64,000 nt of DNA from Kineosporia corallincola. GTDB taxonomy: Bacteria; Actinomycetota; Actinomycetes; Actinomycetales; Kineosporiaceae. Positions within the stretch are counted from its first letter, which is position 1; every line of letters begins with the position of its first letter. The notes under the pieces are model-generated. The model did not search any database. It saw only the letters and a list, made by a program, of their open reading frames with translations, and was not told the DNA's origin. The stretch lies in the NCBI RefSeq assembly GCF_018499875.1, contig NZ_JAHBAY010000001.1, forward strand, positions 620,001 to 684,000. Direction: 5' to 3'. Position numbers and translations under genes: made by a program. Positions 29,910 to 34,886 of the stretch are shown one piece after another.

Positions 29910-30142
29910 TGGCCATCGGTTCGAAGGACCTGAACCCGGCCAACCTGCGTGGTTTCGACCAGGATCGTCTGGTCGAGGAGCTGAAGAAGGCGAAGGAAGA
30001 GCTCTTCAACCTTCGCTTCCAGTCCGCCACCGGCCAGCTGGAGAACAACATGCGACTGCGCGCGGTGAAGCGTGACATCGCACGGATTTACACGATCATG
30101 CGCGAGCGCGAGCTCGGCATCACCGCCAGCCCGGAGGCCTGA
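29909..30142 (+). CDS. rpmC: 50S ribosomal protein L29 (uL29)
   Basis: A 77-residue, mainly helical L29 next to L23 at the tunnel exit. The segment [27 protein letters not shown] is the family signature. Coupled to rplP by overlapping stop and start; rpsQ follows after two bases. Confidence 0.96.
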
Positions 30143-30144
30143 GC

Positions 30145-30426
30145 ATGAGTGAGAACACCCAGGCTGACGCCCCGGAGCGTGGCCAGCGTAAGGCGCGCCG
30201 CGGCTACGTCGTCAGCGACAAGATGGACAAGACCGTGGTGGTCGAGGTCGAGGACCGGGTCAAGCACCCGCTCTACGGCAAGGTCATCCGGCGCACCACC
30301 AAGGTGAAGGTGCACGACGAGGCCAACACCGCCGGTGTCGGTGACCTGGTGTCGATCTCGGAGACCCGTCCGCTGTCGGCGACCAAGCGCTGGCGCCTGG
30401 TCGAGATTCTGGAGAAGGCCAAGTGA
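30145..30426 (+). CDS. rpsQ: 30S ribosomal protein S17 (uS17)
   Basis: A 93-residue S17, an OB-fold protein that nucleates 30S assembly. After a 17-residue polar extension comes the conserved [19 protein letters not shown] and [13 protein letters not shown]. The stop overlaps the rplN GTG (GTGA). Confidence 0.96.
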
Positions 30427-30791
30427 TTCAGCAGGAGTCGCGGCTGCGCGTCGCCGACAACACGGGTGCCAAGGAGATCCTCTGCATCCGTGTTCTCGGC
30501 GGGTCCGGCCGTCGTTACGCCGGCATCGGTGACGTCATCGTCGCCACCGTGAAGGACGCGATCCCCGGCGGCAACGTCAAGAAGGGCGACGTCGTCAAGG
30601 CCGTCATCGTGCGCACCGTCAAGGAGCGCCGCCGGCCGGACGGCTCGTACATCCGCTTCGACGAGAACGCCGCGGTGATCCTCCGCAACGACGGCGACCC
30701 GCGGGGCACGCGCATCTTCGGGCCGGTCGGCCGCGAGCTGCGCGACAAGAAGTTCATGAAGATCATTTCGCTGGCTCCGGAGGTGCTCTGA
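30423..30791 (+). CDS. rplN: 50S ribosomal protein L14 (uL14)
   Basis: A 122-residue L14 at the subunit interface, near the RsfS silencing-factor site. [19 protein letters not shown], the core [15 protein letters not shown] and the end [19 protein letters not shown] are fully conserved. The GTG overlaps the rpsQ stop. First gene of the classical spc set; no promoter gap separates it here. Confidence 0.97.
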
Positions 30792-30792
30792 G

Positions 30793-31158
30793 ATGGCGAA
30801 GCTGAAGATCAAGAAGGGCGACACCGTCCAGCTGATCACCGGCCGTTCCCAGAAGAACGGCGGGGACCGGAACAAGACCGGCAAGGTTATCGCCGTCTAC
30901 CCGGACACCGAGCGGGTCCTGGTCGAGGGCATCAACCGGGTCAAGCGCCACACCAAAGAGGGTCAGTCCGGCCGGGGTTCCAAGACCGGCGGGATCATCA
31001 CTCAGGAGGCGCCGGTCCACATCAGCAACGTGATGCTGGTCGACCCCGAGACCAAGAAGCCCACCCGCGTCGGCGTCAAGGTCGAGACCGTCGAGCGTGA
31101 CGGCAAGACCAAGACGGTGCGGGTTCGCTACGCCAAGCGTTCCGGTAAGGACCTGTGA
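30793..31158 (+). CDS. rplX: 50S ribosomal protein L24 (uL24)
   Basis: A 121-residue L24 with an N-terminal KOW domain ([20 protein letters not shown]...[10 protein letters not shown]), an assembly initiator of the 50S. It starts one base after the rplN stop. The frame is intact and of normal actinobacterial length. Confidence 0.96.
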
Positions 31159-31160
31159 CG

Positions 31161-31733
31161 ATGACTGTGACTGACGAGGGCACCAAGGTGCAGCCGCGGC
31201 TCCGCGCCCGGTACGACGCCGAGATCGCGCCCGAGCTGCGCAAGCAGTTCAACTACGCGAACGTGATGCAGACTCCGCGTCTGGTCAAGGTCGTCGTGAA
31301 CATGGGTGTGGGCGAGGCCGCCCGCGACTCCAAGCTCATTGACGGCGCGATCCGTGACCTGAGCGCGATCACCGGGCAGAAGCCGCAGGTGACCAAGGCC
31401 CGCAAGTCCATCGCCCAGTTCAAGCTGCGTGAGGGCATGCCGATCGGCGCGCACGTCACGCTGCGCGGCGACCGGATGTGGGAGTTCCTGGACCGGCTGG
31501 TCAGCATCGCCCTGCCGCGTATCCGTGACTTCCGTGGTCTGAACGGCAAGCAGTTCGACGGGCGTGGCAACTACACGTTCGGTCTGAACGAGCAGTCCAT
31601 GTTCCACGAGATCGACCAGGACCGGATCGATCGCGTTCGTGGTATGGACATCACGGTCGTCACCACGGCCACCAACGATGAAGAGGGGCGCGTCTTCCTG
31701 AAGCTCCTCGGTTTCCCGTTCAAGGAGAACTGA
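31161..31733 (+). CDS. rplE: 50S ribosomal protein L5 (uL5)
   Basis: A 190-residue L5 that binds 5S rRNA and the P-site tRNA elbow. [39 protein letters not shown] and [16 protein letters not shown] are conserved. I chose the ATG at 31161, nine bases behind AAGGA; a GTG at 31155 overlapping the rplX stop is possible and adds two residues. Confidence 0.94.
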
Positions 31734-31735
31734 CA

Positions 31736-31921
31736 GTGGCGAAGACTGCGCTGATCAACAAGGCGGCGCGGAAGCCGAAGTTCGGCGTCCGGGCGTACAC
31801 CCGGTGCCAGCGCTGCGGCCGCCCGCACTCGGTCTACCGCAAGTTCGGCCTGTGCCGGATCTGCCTGCGAGAGATGGCGCACCGGGGCGAGCTCCCGGGC
31901 GTCACCAAGAGCAGCTGGTAG
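31736..31921 (+). CDS. rpsN: 30S ribosomal protein S14, zinc-binding type (uS14)
   Basis: A 61-residue type-Z S14. The zinc ligands are the pairs CQRC and CRIC, and the C-terminus [11 protein letters not shown] is conserved. The GTG start is two bases after the rplE stop. It is followed not by rpsH directly but by an extra small reading frame. Confidence 0.96.
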
Positions 31922-31928
31922 GCCGGCC

Positions 31929-32192
31929 GTGTCACAGCTGACGATCCCGAACCCGGGCGCCACTCAGGTGGCGCTCCGGACCGGCCGCCGTCGGACGGTG
32001 CGCAACAATCGCATGGTTTCGCTGCGCTCCAGCCTTCCGACCGGCCTGGTGACGCTGCGGCACGATGTTCCGGAATACCTCCCCGAGTTCCTCGAGCCCG
32101 AGGTTCTCGCAGAAGCAACTACGCCGCAGGTCGACGCCTCCGAGAAGGTCGCCGAAACCGCGGTGGGAAAGGGCGGACAAGCCCAATGGTGA
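31929..32192 (+). CDS. Small protein of unknown function inserted between rpsN and rpsH
   Basis: An 87-codon frame starting with GTG seven bases after rpsN and ending inside the rpsH start (its TGA overlaps GTGATG). I recognise no family. The N-terminal half is basic ([16 protein letters not shown], residues 17-32) and the C-terminal half acidic ([14 protein letters not shown]). It has no Cys and no membrane segment. About 78% of its third codon positions are G or C by my count, coding-like but lower than its neighbours. There is no clear ribosome-binding site, so re-initiation after rpsN would be needed. The gene pair rpsN-rpsH is nearly adjacent in other actinobacteria I know. It could also be a non-translated spacer. 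Confidence 0.5.
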
Positions 32193-32584
32193 TGACCGAT
32201 CCGATCGCGGACATGCTGACCCGCGTCCGGAACGCGAACTCCGCGTACCACGACCAGACTCAGATGCCTTACAGCAAGCTCAAGCAGAAGGTTGCTGAGC
32301 TGCTCCAGGCCGAGGGCTACATCTCCAGCTGGGAGGTCGCGGATGCCGAAGTCGGCAAGACGCTGACCGTCAAGCTGAAGTTCGGCCCCAACCGGGAGCG
32401 CTCGATCGCCGGTCTCCGGCGCATCAGCAAGCCCGGTCTGCGGGTCTACGCGAAGTCGACGAACCTGCCCCGCGTCCTCGGCGGACTCGGCGTGGCGATC
32501 CTCTCGACGTCCTCCGGTCTCATGACCGACAAGCAGGCCAAGCAGAAGGGCGTGGGTGGGGAAGTCCTCGCCTACGTCTGGTAA
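32186..32584 (+). CDS. rpsH: 30S ribosomal protein S8 (uS8)
   Basis: A 132-residue S8 that binds helix 21 of 16S rRNA and, in E. coli, represses the spc operon. [16 protein letters not shown] and the C-terminal [20 protein letters not shown] are conserved. ATG at 32186 or 32192 are both possible; the second gives the usual MTDPIAD start. AAAGGG lies upstream within the preceding small frame. Confidence 0.96.
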
Positions 32585-32602
32585 CGGGAAGGGAGAGAGA
32601 GC

Positions 32603-33145
32603 ATGTCCCGAATTGGACGACTGCCGATCACCGTTCCCGCCGGCGTCGACGTGACCCTCGATGGTGCTGACGTGACCGTGAAGGGCCCGAAGGGCACCCT
32701 CACGCACACCGTCGCCGCCCCGATCACCGTCGCCCGCGAGGACGACGGCACGGTCAAGGTCACGCGCCCGGACGACGAGCGTACGTCGCGCGCACTGCAC
32801 GGCCTCACCCGCACCCTGATCGCCAACATGGTGACCGGTGTGACGGATGGCTATGTCAAGAAGCTCGAGATCGTCGGCACCGGTTACCGCGTGCAGGCGA
32901 AGGGCTCCAACCTGGAGTTCGCTCTCGGCTACAGCCACTCGATCACGATCGAGCCGCCGGCCGGCATCACCTTCGCGGTGGAGGGCCCGACCAAGTTCTC
33001 GGTCTCGGGCATCGACAAGCAGGCTGTCGGCGAGGTTGCTGCCAACCTCCGCAGCCTGCGCAAGCCCGACCCGTACAAGGGCAAGGGTGTCCGCTACGCC
33101 GACGAAGTGATCAAGCGCAAGGTCGGAAAGGCGGGCAAGAAGTAA
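32603..33145 (+). CDS. rplF: 50S ribosomal protein L6 (uL6)
   Basis: A 180-residue L6 with two repeated domains, near the sarcin-ricin loop. [17 protein letters not shown] and the C-terminal [19 protein letters not shown] are conserved. A GGGAAGGGAGAGAG purine run serves as ribosome-binding site. The stop overlaps the rplR ATG (TAATG). Confidence 0.97.
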
Positions 33146-33534
33146 TGGCTATCGGTGTGAAGCGCAGCGGTGGTGGCTCGGTCCGCAACAAGCAGGCCGC
33201 CCGTACCCGCCGCCACCTGCGAGTGCGCAAGCAGCTGCGGGGCTCGACCGAGCGCCCGCGTCTGGTCGTGAAGCGTTCCGCCCGGCACGTTTTCGTGCAG
33301 ATCGTGGACGACACGGTGGGCAAGACCCTGGCTTCGGCCTCCACCCTGGAGGCGGACCTGCGAGCCCTGGACGGCGACAAGACCGCCAAGGCCCGCAAGG
33401 TCGGCGAGCTGGTGGGAGAGCGTGCCAAGGCCGCCGGTGTGAGCGCTGTGGTCTTCGACCGCGGCGGGAACAAGTACCACGGTCGCGTCGCCGCCATTGC
33501 GGACGGCGCCCGTGAAGCCGGCCTGGTCCTGTAA
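33145..33534 (+). CDS. rplR: 50S ribosomal protein L18 (uL18)
   Basis: A 129-residue L18 that binds 5S r[24 protein letters not shown] and [25 protein letters not shown] are conserved. Start coupled to rplF; 47 bases separate it from rpsE. Confidence 0.97.
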
Positions 33535-33581
33535 CCCATGCGCACGCTGACCTTTACGAAGCGAGAGAGAAGGAACGTCTG

Positions 33582-34241
33582 ATGGCTGGACCTCAGCGTC
33601 GCGGGCCCGGGGGTAACAACAACTCCGGCGGGCCGAACAGCGGCGGCGAGAACAGCGGCGGCGGCGGTCGCCGGGGCGGCCGCGACCGCGACAACCGCGG
33701 GGGTCGTGACGGCGGCCAGGACAAGAACCAGTTCGTCGAGCGCGTCGTCACGATCAACCGGGTCGCCAAGGTCGTGAAGGGTGGTCGTCGCTTCAGCTTC
33801 ACCGCCCTGGTCGTGGTCGGTGACGGCGACGGCACCGTGGGCGTCGGTTACGGCAAGGCCAAGGAAGTTCCCGCGGCCATCGCCAAGGGTGTCGAAGAGG
33901 CGAAGAAGGCCTTCTTCAAGGTTCCCCGCATCCAGGGCACCATCCCGCACCCGAGCCAGGGTGAGGAGGCGGCCGGCGTCGTCCTGCTGCGCCCGGCGTC
34001 CCCGGGTACCGGCGTCATCGCCGGTGGTCCGGTGCGCGCCGTGCTGGAGTGCGCCGGTATCCACGACGTGCTGAGCAAGTCGCTCGGCTCGGACAACGCG
34101 ATCAACGTCGTGCACGCGACCGTTGCCGCGCTGCGTGGCCTGGAGCGTCCGGAAGAGGTTGCGGCCCGTCGTGGTCTGCCCCTCGAGGACGTCGCCCCGG
34201 TCGCTCTGCTGCGCGCCCGGGCGGCGGGGGTGGCCGGCTGA
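33582..34241 (+). CDS. rpsE: 30S ribosomal protein S5 (uS5) with RGG-like N-terminal extension
   Basis: A 219-residue S5 important for decoding fidelity and mRNA unwinding. Residues 1-48 are a low-complexity Gly/Arg/Asn/Asp extension with RGG-like repeats ([18 protein letters not shown]), then the normal core [20 protein letters not shown] and [12 protein letters not shown]. The start is an ATG behind AGAGAGAAGGA. The stop overlaps the rpmD ATG (TGATG). Confidence 0.97.
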
Positions 34242-34423
34242 TGGCTCAGATCAAGGTCACCCAGGTCAAGTCGAAGATCGGTGGCAAGCAGAACCAGCGC
34301 GACTCGCTGCGTTCGCTCGGCCTGAAGCGGATCGGCGACACCGTCGTCAAGGAGGACCGTCCCGAGATCCGCGGGATGGTCAACACGGTGCGGCATCTCG
34401 TCACCGTCGAGGAGGTGGACTGA
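34241..34423 (+). CDS. rpmD: 50S ribosomal protein L30 (uL30)
   Basis: A 60-residue L30: [20 protein letters not shown], then [22 protein letters not shown] and [11 protein letters not shown]. Its ATG overlaps the rpsE stop, fixing the start, although the frame is open upstream inside rpsE. rplO starts two bases after its stop. Confidence 0.96.
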
Positions 34424-34424
34424 G

Positions 34425-34886
34425 ATGGCAGAAGGCCAGCGCGAGCACGCGCTGAAGGTGCATCACCTGCGTCCTGCCCCCGGTGCCAAGACCGCCAAGA
34501 CCCGCGTGGGTCGTGGTGAAGGCAGCAAGGGTAAGACGGCGGGCCGCGGTACCAAGGGTACGAAGGCTCGTTACCAGGTTCCGGCCCGGTTCGAGGGTGG
34601 GCAGATGCCGCTGCACATGCGGCTGCCCAAGCTCCGTGGCTTCAAGAACCCGTTCCGGACCGAGTACCAGGTCGTCAACCTGGACAAGCTCGGCAGCCTG
34701 TTCCCCGACGGCGGCAGCGTCACCGTCGCGGACCTGGTCGCCAAGGGCGCGGTCCGTGAGGGCCACCTGGTCAAGGTCCTCGGCGACGGCGAGATCTCGG
34801 TCGCGCTCAACGTGAGCGCGAACAAGTTCTCCGCCAGCGCCAAGGAGAAGCTGGCCGCGGCCGGCGGCAGCGCCACCGAGCTGTAA
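34425..34886 (+). CDS. rplO: 50S ribosomal protein L15 (uL15)
   Basis: A 153-residue L15. The Gly/Lys-rich N-terminal arm ([26 protein letters not shown]) runs through the 50S, and the core [20 protein letters not shown] is conserved. It ends the spc ribosomal set; a long hairpin separates it from secY. Confidence 0.97.

Follow-up and report, generated by a model that had tools for sequence, protein, structure and literature searches.

A candidate S8 operator before rpsH across the class Actinomycetes, and a Kineosporiaceae reading frame that runs through it

Introduction

What is an open reading frame (ORF) of 87 codons doing between rpsN and rpsH, within the spc operon of Kineosporia corallincola? 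We studied this gap in a window of 64,000 nucleotides (the whole stretch of DNA analysed, positions 620,001 to 684,000 of contig NZ_JAHBAY010000001.1) taken from a genome of 8.2 Mb. The initial annotation, made from the sequence alone, had seen there a single unrecognised gene and had proposed three roles for it: a small ribosome-associated protein, a re-initiation relay setting rpsH translation, or an S8-binding regulatory leader. The relevant part of a 2024 review states that spc operon control in B. subtilis 'or other species' is unknown, with the exception of E. coli and V. cholerae (PMC10931766), and a passage of PMC8470358 speaks of 'almost no information' for Actinobacteria and other phyla.

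Results

The ORF and its neighbours

The features that define the locus are the following.

31736..31921, + strand: rpsN (S14 type Z), the upstream neighbour (Pfam PF00253, NCBIfam NF005974)
31929..32192, + strand: ORF of 87 codons with a GTG start and a TGA stop at 32190-32192; a syntenic ORF is present in 13/13 family genomes
32186..32584, + strand: rpsH (S8), the likely ligand and target (Pfam PF00410, NCBIfam NF001109)

The identity of rplE is likewise backed by Pfam. The ORF lies exactly where it had been placed, starting 7 nt past the rpsN stop (31921), and its TGA overlaps the rpsH ATG at 32186. This overlap, real in the window, is partly trivial outside the genus, because rpsH begins there with ATG ACN and any frame in that register stops at ATGA. 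The near-adjacency of rpsN and rpsH assumed for actinobacteria holds outside the class (15 of 23 loci, 3-18 nt) but fails inside it, where the gap measures 52-282 nt in 62 of the 63 S8-anchored loci with rpsN upstream, with a median of 88 nt over the 63.

The absence of a known protein family was confirmed, no match being found in Pfam (0/13 family members at E 0.1), in NCBIfam (the window's protein) or in PHROGs (0/3 family members). The single PDB profile match, at E 0.41, was taken as chance. The predicted structure of the peptide, too uncertain to serve as a query for similar folds, has a mean pLDDT of 56.6 and contains a possible beta hairpin formed by residues 23-31 and 40-48. On the minus strand, an ORF of 324 codons (31964-32938), probably a shadow frame of this high-GC DNA, spans the gap, rpsH and part of rplF. 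For Streptomyces ambofaciens, a passage of PMC8388888 reports an RNA antisense to rpsH.

A probable coding segment specific to Kineosporiaceae

The family sample (f1) comprises 13 genomes from six genera, with 11 distinct gap sequences, and rpsH was found by S8 search in all of them; the family and class names of the compared genomes were deduced from kinship labels and from named records that carry the ORF. In 13/13 genomes the rpsN-rpsH gap, of 197-287 nt, holds an ORF that ends at the rpsH start. In the alignment of the proteins an N-terminal core and a C-terminal end are conserved, and a linker of variable length separates them; the part upstream of the C-terminal end divides in the window as follows.

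31929..32012, + strand: N-terminal extension found in the genus only (codons 1-28), pN/pS 0.41 over codons 2-28
32013..32084, + strand: core conserved as protein (codons 29-52), with a pN/pS of 0.03 among members of the genus and, across genera, several synonymous codons at most conserved residues
32085..32114, + strand: variable linker with in-frame length changes in the family alignment

The ratios in the genus were summed over the 15 pairs of six members, pairs which are not independent and which include two species almost identical in this region; they amount to 0.03 in the core (61 synonymous versus 5 non-synonymous differences) and to 0.68 in codons 63-86 (21.5 versus 41.5). Between genera, the core ratio ranges from 0.34 to 0.77 in 13 of 15 pairs, the two others (1.69 and 1.27) both involving genome G007, and that of the operator part described below ranges from 0.79 to 1.63, about 1; pS is there as low as pN. 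The choice of codons tells the same two parts apart. Most of the conserved core residues vary in codon (R33 and S34 use four codons each among the 13 genomes), with the exception of L32, encoded by one codon in 13/13, whereas T65, V68, E76, T77, K81, G82 and A85 of the operator part are each encoded by one codon in 13/13, P66 (two codons) and G83 (several) being those that do vary. From the codon usage and the pN/pS contrast, we therefore conclude that the first part is held as protein and the last part as nucleotide sequence. Codons 29-52 are very likely protein-coding on this comparative evidence, and the small-protein option, as a protein that may be ribosome-associated, is supported for the N-terminal core by its codon-level constraint, but not for the 3' part, which is conserved as nucleotides.

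In the family members outside the genus of the window, the proteins begin with MATLE or MPTLE. Within the genus the core is preceded by 28 codons, and GTG 31998 (codon 24) lies at the same distance from the core as the start of the other genera, so that GTG 31929 and GTG 31998 are both candidate starts. The variable sites of the extension distribute as 5/5/13 over codon positions 1/2/3; 13 of 23 at the third position corresponds to p of about 0.02 if sites are independent, which hints at a weak coding constraint on codons 1-28.

The search for homologues with a protein profile matched 32 of 396 order genomes, 13 of them belonging to f1. Among the 19 others, 17 have loci (L061-L077), 16 of which are rpsH loci, the match of L073 lying elsewhere; G101 and G186, without loci, were left out of the inspection. 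Thirteen of these 16 loci match from model position 31 onwards, that is, over the linker and operator part, and the matches of L066, L069 and L076 reach positions 17-21. Outside the family, this profile search of 396 order genomes gave no convincing relative of the core. A contig scan with one peptide pattern from the operator part, a weak test, returned 7 loci. Most of the named records in which the ORF occurs belong to Kineosporia species, the others being a Kineosporiaceae MAG and an unclassified Actinomycetota MAG; Kineosporia mesophila is assigned to class Actinomycetes in the NCBI taxonomy.

An RNA structure in the last codons

The last 24 or so codons of the ORF (32119-32185), conserved as nucleotides rather than as protein, coincide with an RNA element made of the following parts.

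32119..32191, + strand: putative S8-operator RNA element (match of covariance model R1, 59.9 bits)
32122..32126, + strand: 5' strand of helix P1, CGCCG
32128..32132, + strand: 5' strand of the candidate S8 core, AGGUC, equivalent to 16S helix 21 positions 595-599 (core as defined in the relevant part of PMC4176348)
32154..32159, + strand: 3' strand of the candidate S8 core, GAAACC, equivalent to positions 639-644, with 641-642 unpaired
32161..32165, + strand: 3' strand of helix P1, CGGUG
32165..32173, + strand: purine-rich Shine-Dalgarno-like stretch GGGAAAGGG in the sequence, touching P1
32171..32184, + strand: small hairpin P2 (GGGC/GCCC) of the MFE fold, between the Shine-Dalgarno stretch and the rpsH start

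Two helices flank an asymmetric internal loop that contains the helix 21 core, read as A595, G596-C644, G597-C643, U598-A640 and unpaired 641 and A642. Covariation was evaluated on 54 elements picked from 84, five poorly pairing copies being left out: in this set 93.6% of the cells are paired and compensatory changes occur in 9 of 12 pairs. The pairing falls to 36-46% when the partner strand is slid, and the covariation score is 0.375, that of shuffles being 0.156 and that of the slid versions not exceeding 0.083. As a control free of any motif pattern, stretches of at most 62 nt were cut before rpsH, yielding 65 distinct sequences. A642 is the one invariant column in their alignment, and C643 is kept at 90% or more. 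In 30 of the 65, chosen mostly for short loops, RNAalifold returned the same structure with 6/10 pairs compensated, and G597-C643 is G-C in all 30 of this chosen subset. Taken alone, the window copy folds into the S8 core, with a fold z-score of only -1.33; in the whole 282-nt ORF region, minimum-energy folding gives a structure other than that of the operator.

In three of the six members of the genus (L037, L039, L040), a G-C pair of P1 is replaced by A-U, through a change of CCG to CCA on one strand and A78V on the other; since the synonymous CCA change is matched by A78V, the pair was kept at the cost of an amino-acid change. Downstream of P1, a loosely defined Shine-Dalgarno-like purine word is found in 96 of 97 loci, the distance from P1 to the rpsH start being 16-27 nt in the 97 copies. 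A hairpin of at least 4 bp precedes the start in 45 of 69 distinct tails, compared with a mean of 11.75 and a maximum of 21 in shuffles.

Distribution of the element

Anchoring on S8 across the class matched 137 of 148 genomes, and 69 loci besides our own were examined. A core pattern requiring A595, G597, C599, G639, A642 and C643 was found before rpsH in 68 of the 69, and in 97 of 98 after the addition of 13 family loci and 16 profile matches; the constancy of these six positions among pattern matches is by construction, because the pattern required them. The strict form, with five P1 pairs, is present in 53/69 class loci, and four or more P1 pairs in 61/69; shuffled gaps yield on average 0.015 strict loci in each round of 69. 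Two chance occurrences of the strict form, both on the minus strand of the window and at a distance from rpsH, make the pattern alone weak evidence. With covariance model R1, the genome of K. corallincola yields one strong match, at 59.9 bits, the next scoring 20.7; for the window copy only this uniqueness counts, because that copy was a training row.

Of the 68 class loci with the element, 62 have rpsN upstream. The element also precedes rpsH in five loci where the next upstream gene is rplE (L082, L085, L086, L145, L146). Seven class loci (L085, L086, L097, L101, L119, L145, L146) have three P1 pairs or fewer in the standard register, and some of them pair in a shifted one. In the f19 loci L085, L086, L145 and L146, where rplE adjoins rpsH, the apical loop CGTGYAACG is shared and P1 seems to pair one base closer. 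The sole class locus examined in which a gap of 12 nt separates rpsN from rpsH, L121, contains no element, an apparent loss.

The coding frame is distributed otherwise. Among the 62 class loci with a long enough gap, 37 have no start codon in the frame of the ORF and 35 have a stop, the two sets overlapping; an ORF of at least 25 codons in this frame is present in 11. The initial annotation had made the absence of a conserved frame in homologous gaps, together with that of ribosome footprints, the mark of a spacer: the frame is kept within the family, and it is absent (no ORF of at least 25 codons) from 51 of the 62 class loci, where the RNA remains.

A covariance scan of the phylum matched 22 of 296 genomes. 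By their coordinates, 18/18 class matches lie at an rpsH start, several of them in genomes outside the training set (e.g. G412, G441, G424, G017). The four matches outside the class (L176-L179), for which no rpsH was found in the fetched stretch, were treated as chance. The scan missed eight class genomes, six of which have the element by pattern, namely G032 (L086), G048 (L085), G063 (L145), G420 (L118), G480 (L088) and G516 (L111), so that 22/296 is an underestimate. As for the 23 rpsH loci outside the class, 21 are devoid of the core pattern, and the matches of the other two are weak and involve very long loops. At the sensitivity of the present scans, we thus see the element as what appears to be a feature of class Actinomycetes.

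Rfam 15 gives no match above gathering in the window from 20000 to 45000, nor in 20 class loci. The sub-threshold matches in the region, npcTB_6715 (E 0.014), sbcD and CDKN2B-AS_2, as well as c-di-GMP-II-GAG (E 0.65), which overlaps the operator, are far below gathering and were rejected.

Other gaps carry conserved sequences of their own. Outside the class, the f63 loci L183, L185, L188, L189 and L191 have 99-185 nt before rpsH; the gaps of L183 and L185 end with another hairpin, GGGAAGTGC..GGGAACCCC, which may be a divergent S8 site, and the motif GGGAAGT is common to L188, L189 and L191. The f72 loci L204 and L205 share a very similar gap of 114 nt before rpsH, in which the segments GGTTGAAAGGTTGC..GCAACAGTAACC look paired and do not resemble the class element. 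In the f37 loci L091, L093, L095, L096, L100, L103 and L106, the gaps of 209-214 nt contain, before the operator, further conserved blocks (CTCTCGGTAAG.., GGTTGGGCG..) for which the operator does not account.

Correspondence with the S8 site of 16S rRNA

The S8 core of helix 21 consists, in the part of PMC4176348 that defines it, of the triple 595-(596-644), the triple (G597-C643)-641 and the invariant A642. The sequence of the element, A-G-G-U-C / G-A-(A or U)-A-C-C, pairs as this core does. A595 accompanies a 596-644 pair that is G-C in 53/54 elements and A-U in 1/54, combinations compatible by sequence with the natural variants given there (PMC4176348). At position 641, 89 of the 97 copies carry A and the remaining 8 carry U; the base is U641 in E. 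coli 16S, and the same source writes N641 for natural S8 sites. U598-A640 is swapped for C-G in 11/54 elements.

The 16S rRNA of the same genome reads G595 C596 G597 U598 C599 / G639 G640 U641 A642 C643 G644 in helix 21, in a tentative E. coli numbering obtained by alignment. The operator has the same pairing and the same A642 but differs from it at 596-644 (C-G in the rRNA, G-C in the mRNA), 595 (G and A), 598-640 (U-G and U-A) and 641 (U and A), and the flanking helices are unlike. With its structure, its covariation and its class-wide position, the S8-binding leader of the initial annotation is strongly supported for the 3' part of the ORF, and the element at 32119-32191 is very likely, on these sequence comparisons, an S8 operator.

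Discussion

The model we propose integrates what was observed, namely the signature of coding and an RNA structure that covaries, keeps its position throughout the class and agrees with the S8 core; we give the model a probability of roughly three in four. It replaces the view of a single gene, the ORF being a family-specific coding segment in frame with a class-wide RNA element. The rpsN-rpsH gap would hold an operator for S8 that reproduces in mRNA the S8 site of 16S helix 21 and immediately precedes the rpsH ribosome-binding site. Whenever S8 is in excess over rRNA, the free protein would bind this operator and clamp P1 beside the Shine-Dalgarno sequence, thereby lowering the translation of rpsH and, by coupling, that of the genes behind. 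In the Kineosporiaceae, a coding segment, which we infer to be younger than the operator, separates rpsN from the operator, with a frame that crosses the latter and stops on the rpsH start. Since the ORF runs through the operator, the ribosomes translating it would have to cross the operator to reach rpsH; in doing so they would unfold it and could reinitiate at rpsH. The repression by S8 would then become a contest with the translation arriving from upstream. The conserved peptide may have a function of its own. In a more far-reaching version, which we regard as possible but doubtful, the ORF would be a double-coded regulator, with an N-terminal core acting in S8 or 30S homeostasis and C-terminal codons that are the S8 operator, so that its synthesis would erase S8 repression and the operator would dictate the tail.

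Among the alternatives, the whole ORF could be an ordinary small protein gene, the conservation of its 3' DNA coming from the protein and from the rpsH ribosome-binding site; the frame is indeed open to the rpsH start, and the C-terminal motif readable, in all 13 family genomes. The same 3' bases are nevertheless found across the class, in gaps of which 37/62 have no start codon and 35/62 a stop, and in this part pS is as low as pN and pairs are compensated, so that such a gene is very improbable and already largely refuted; conservation of the whole ORF as protein was ruled out, because the 3' part behaves as RNA. A plain spacer with a chance ORF is the least credible reading of all. This GC-rich DNA is rich in open frames (41 ORFs of at least 50 codons, real genes included, overlap 30000-34500), and 11/62 class gaps have one of at least 25 codons in the same frame, but the codon-level selection in the core and the covariation in the 3' part already refute it.

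The element might bind a ligand other than S8, for instance S14 or another assembly protein, or be a structural spacer placing the Shine-Dalgarno sequence; its frequent position downstream of rpsN (62/68 class loci that have it) and the second hairpin, P2, which spaces the Shine-Dalgarno stretch and the start, would fit. We hold this to be improbable, the element remaining 5' of rpsH where rpsN is not upstream and reproducing the S8 core base by base, A642 included. On the other hand, the ORF could matter through the translation that couples rpsN to rpsH, with a peptide devoid of function. The geometry makes a re-initiation relay setting rpsH translation plausible, and family f15 offers a parallel: in 12/12 genomes an open frame of 28-36 codons begins at a GTG within the rpsN stop and extends to the rpsH start, the gap lengths (82, 94, 97, 106) are all 1 modulo 3, rpsN ends with TGA in 12/12 compared with 5/63 S8-anchored class loci, and upstream of the operator the peptide visibly lacks conservation. 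The GTG of f15 is, however, a by-product, because TGG TGA yields it automatically, and the f15 frame supports a relay at most; a quick L5+S8 tree, modestly supported, does not place f15 as sister of f1, and we accordingly regard the short f15 frame as a separate case. The core peptide of the Kineosporiaceae is itself conserved, and we consider a relay without a functional peptide rather unlikely. Our preferred reading remains the S8 operator crossed by a translated, family-specific frame.

Relation to known systems

Translated leader ORFs control the downstream gene by coupling, and in them, as here, the stop of the ORF overlaps the next start. The Kineosporiaceae case differs from them in that the core is conserved as a peptide and that the putative operator is encoded inside the ORF.

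In Actinobacteria, cis RNA elements have been proposed or shown to control ribosomal protein genes, as in the leaders of L17 and L31 (PMC7247131, Table 1) and of rpsO (passages of PMC8470358). The part of that Table 1 that was covered contains no S8 leader, and a search of PMC8470358 for the terms rpsH, uS8 and spc gave no result. In the titles and abstract openings of the open-licence literature we found no earlier description of an S8 leader in Actinobacteria, and one may exist elsewhere.

The closest counterpart is the S8 operator of the E. coli spc operon, also an mRNA copy of the S8 core of 16S helix 21, built on the triple at 595-(596-644), the pair 597-643 and positions 641-642 (relevant parts of PMC4176348 and PMC10931766). 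The pair 597-643 and A642 recur in the present element, whose bases would also be compatible with the triple. The E. coli operator is located at the start of rplE, whereas the actinomycete element lies directly 5' of rpsH, has mostly A at position 641 and is class-wide; the window contains no copy of the strict pattern at rplE. A conserved S8 site before rpsH across the Actinomycetes would offer a directly testable answer on the control of the spc operon in this class. Furthermore, the putative operator of the Kineosporiaceae, unlike that of E. coli, lies inside the reading frame of another gene that extends up to the rpsH start. Can a ribosomal operon, however highly conserved, acquire a new gene whose frame passes through an RNA switch? 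The Kineosporiaceae case suggests how it could.
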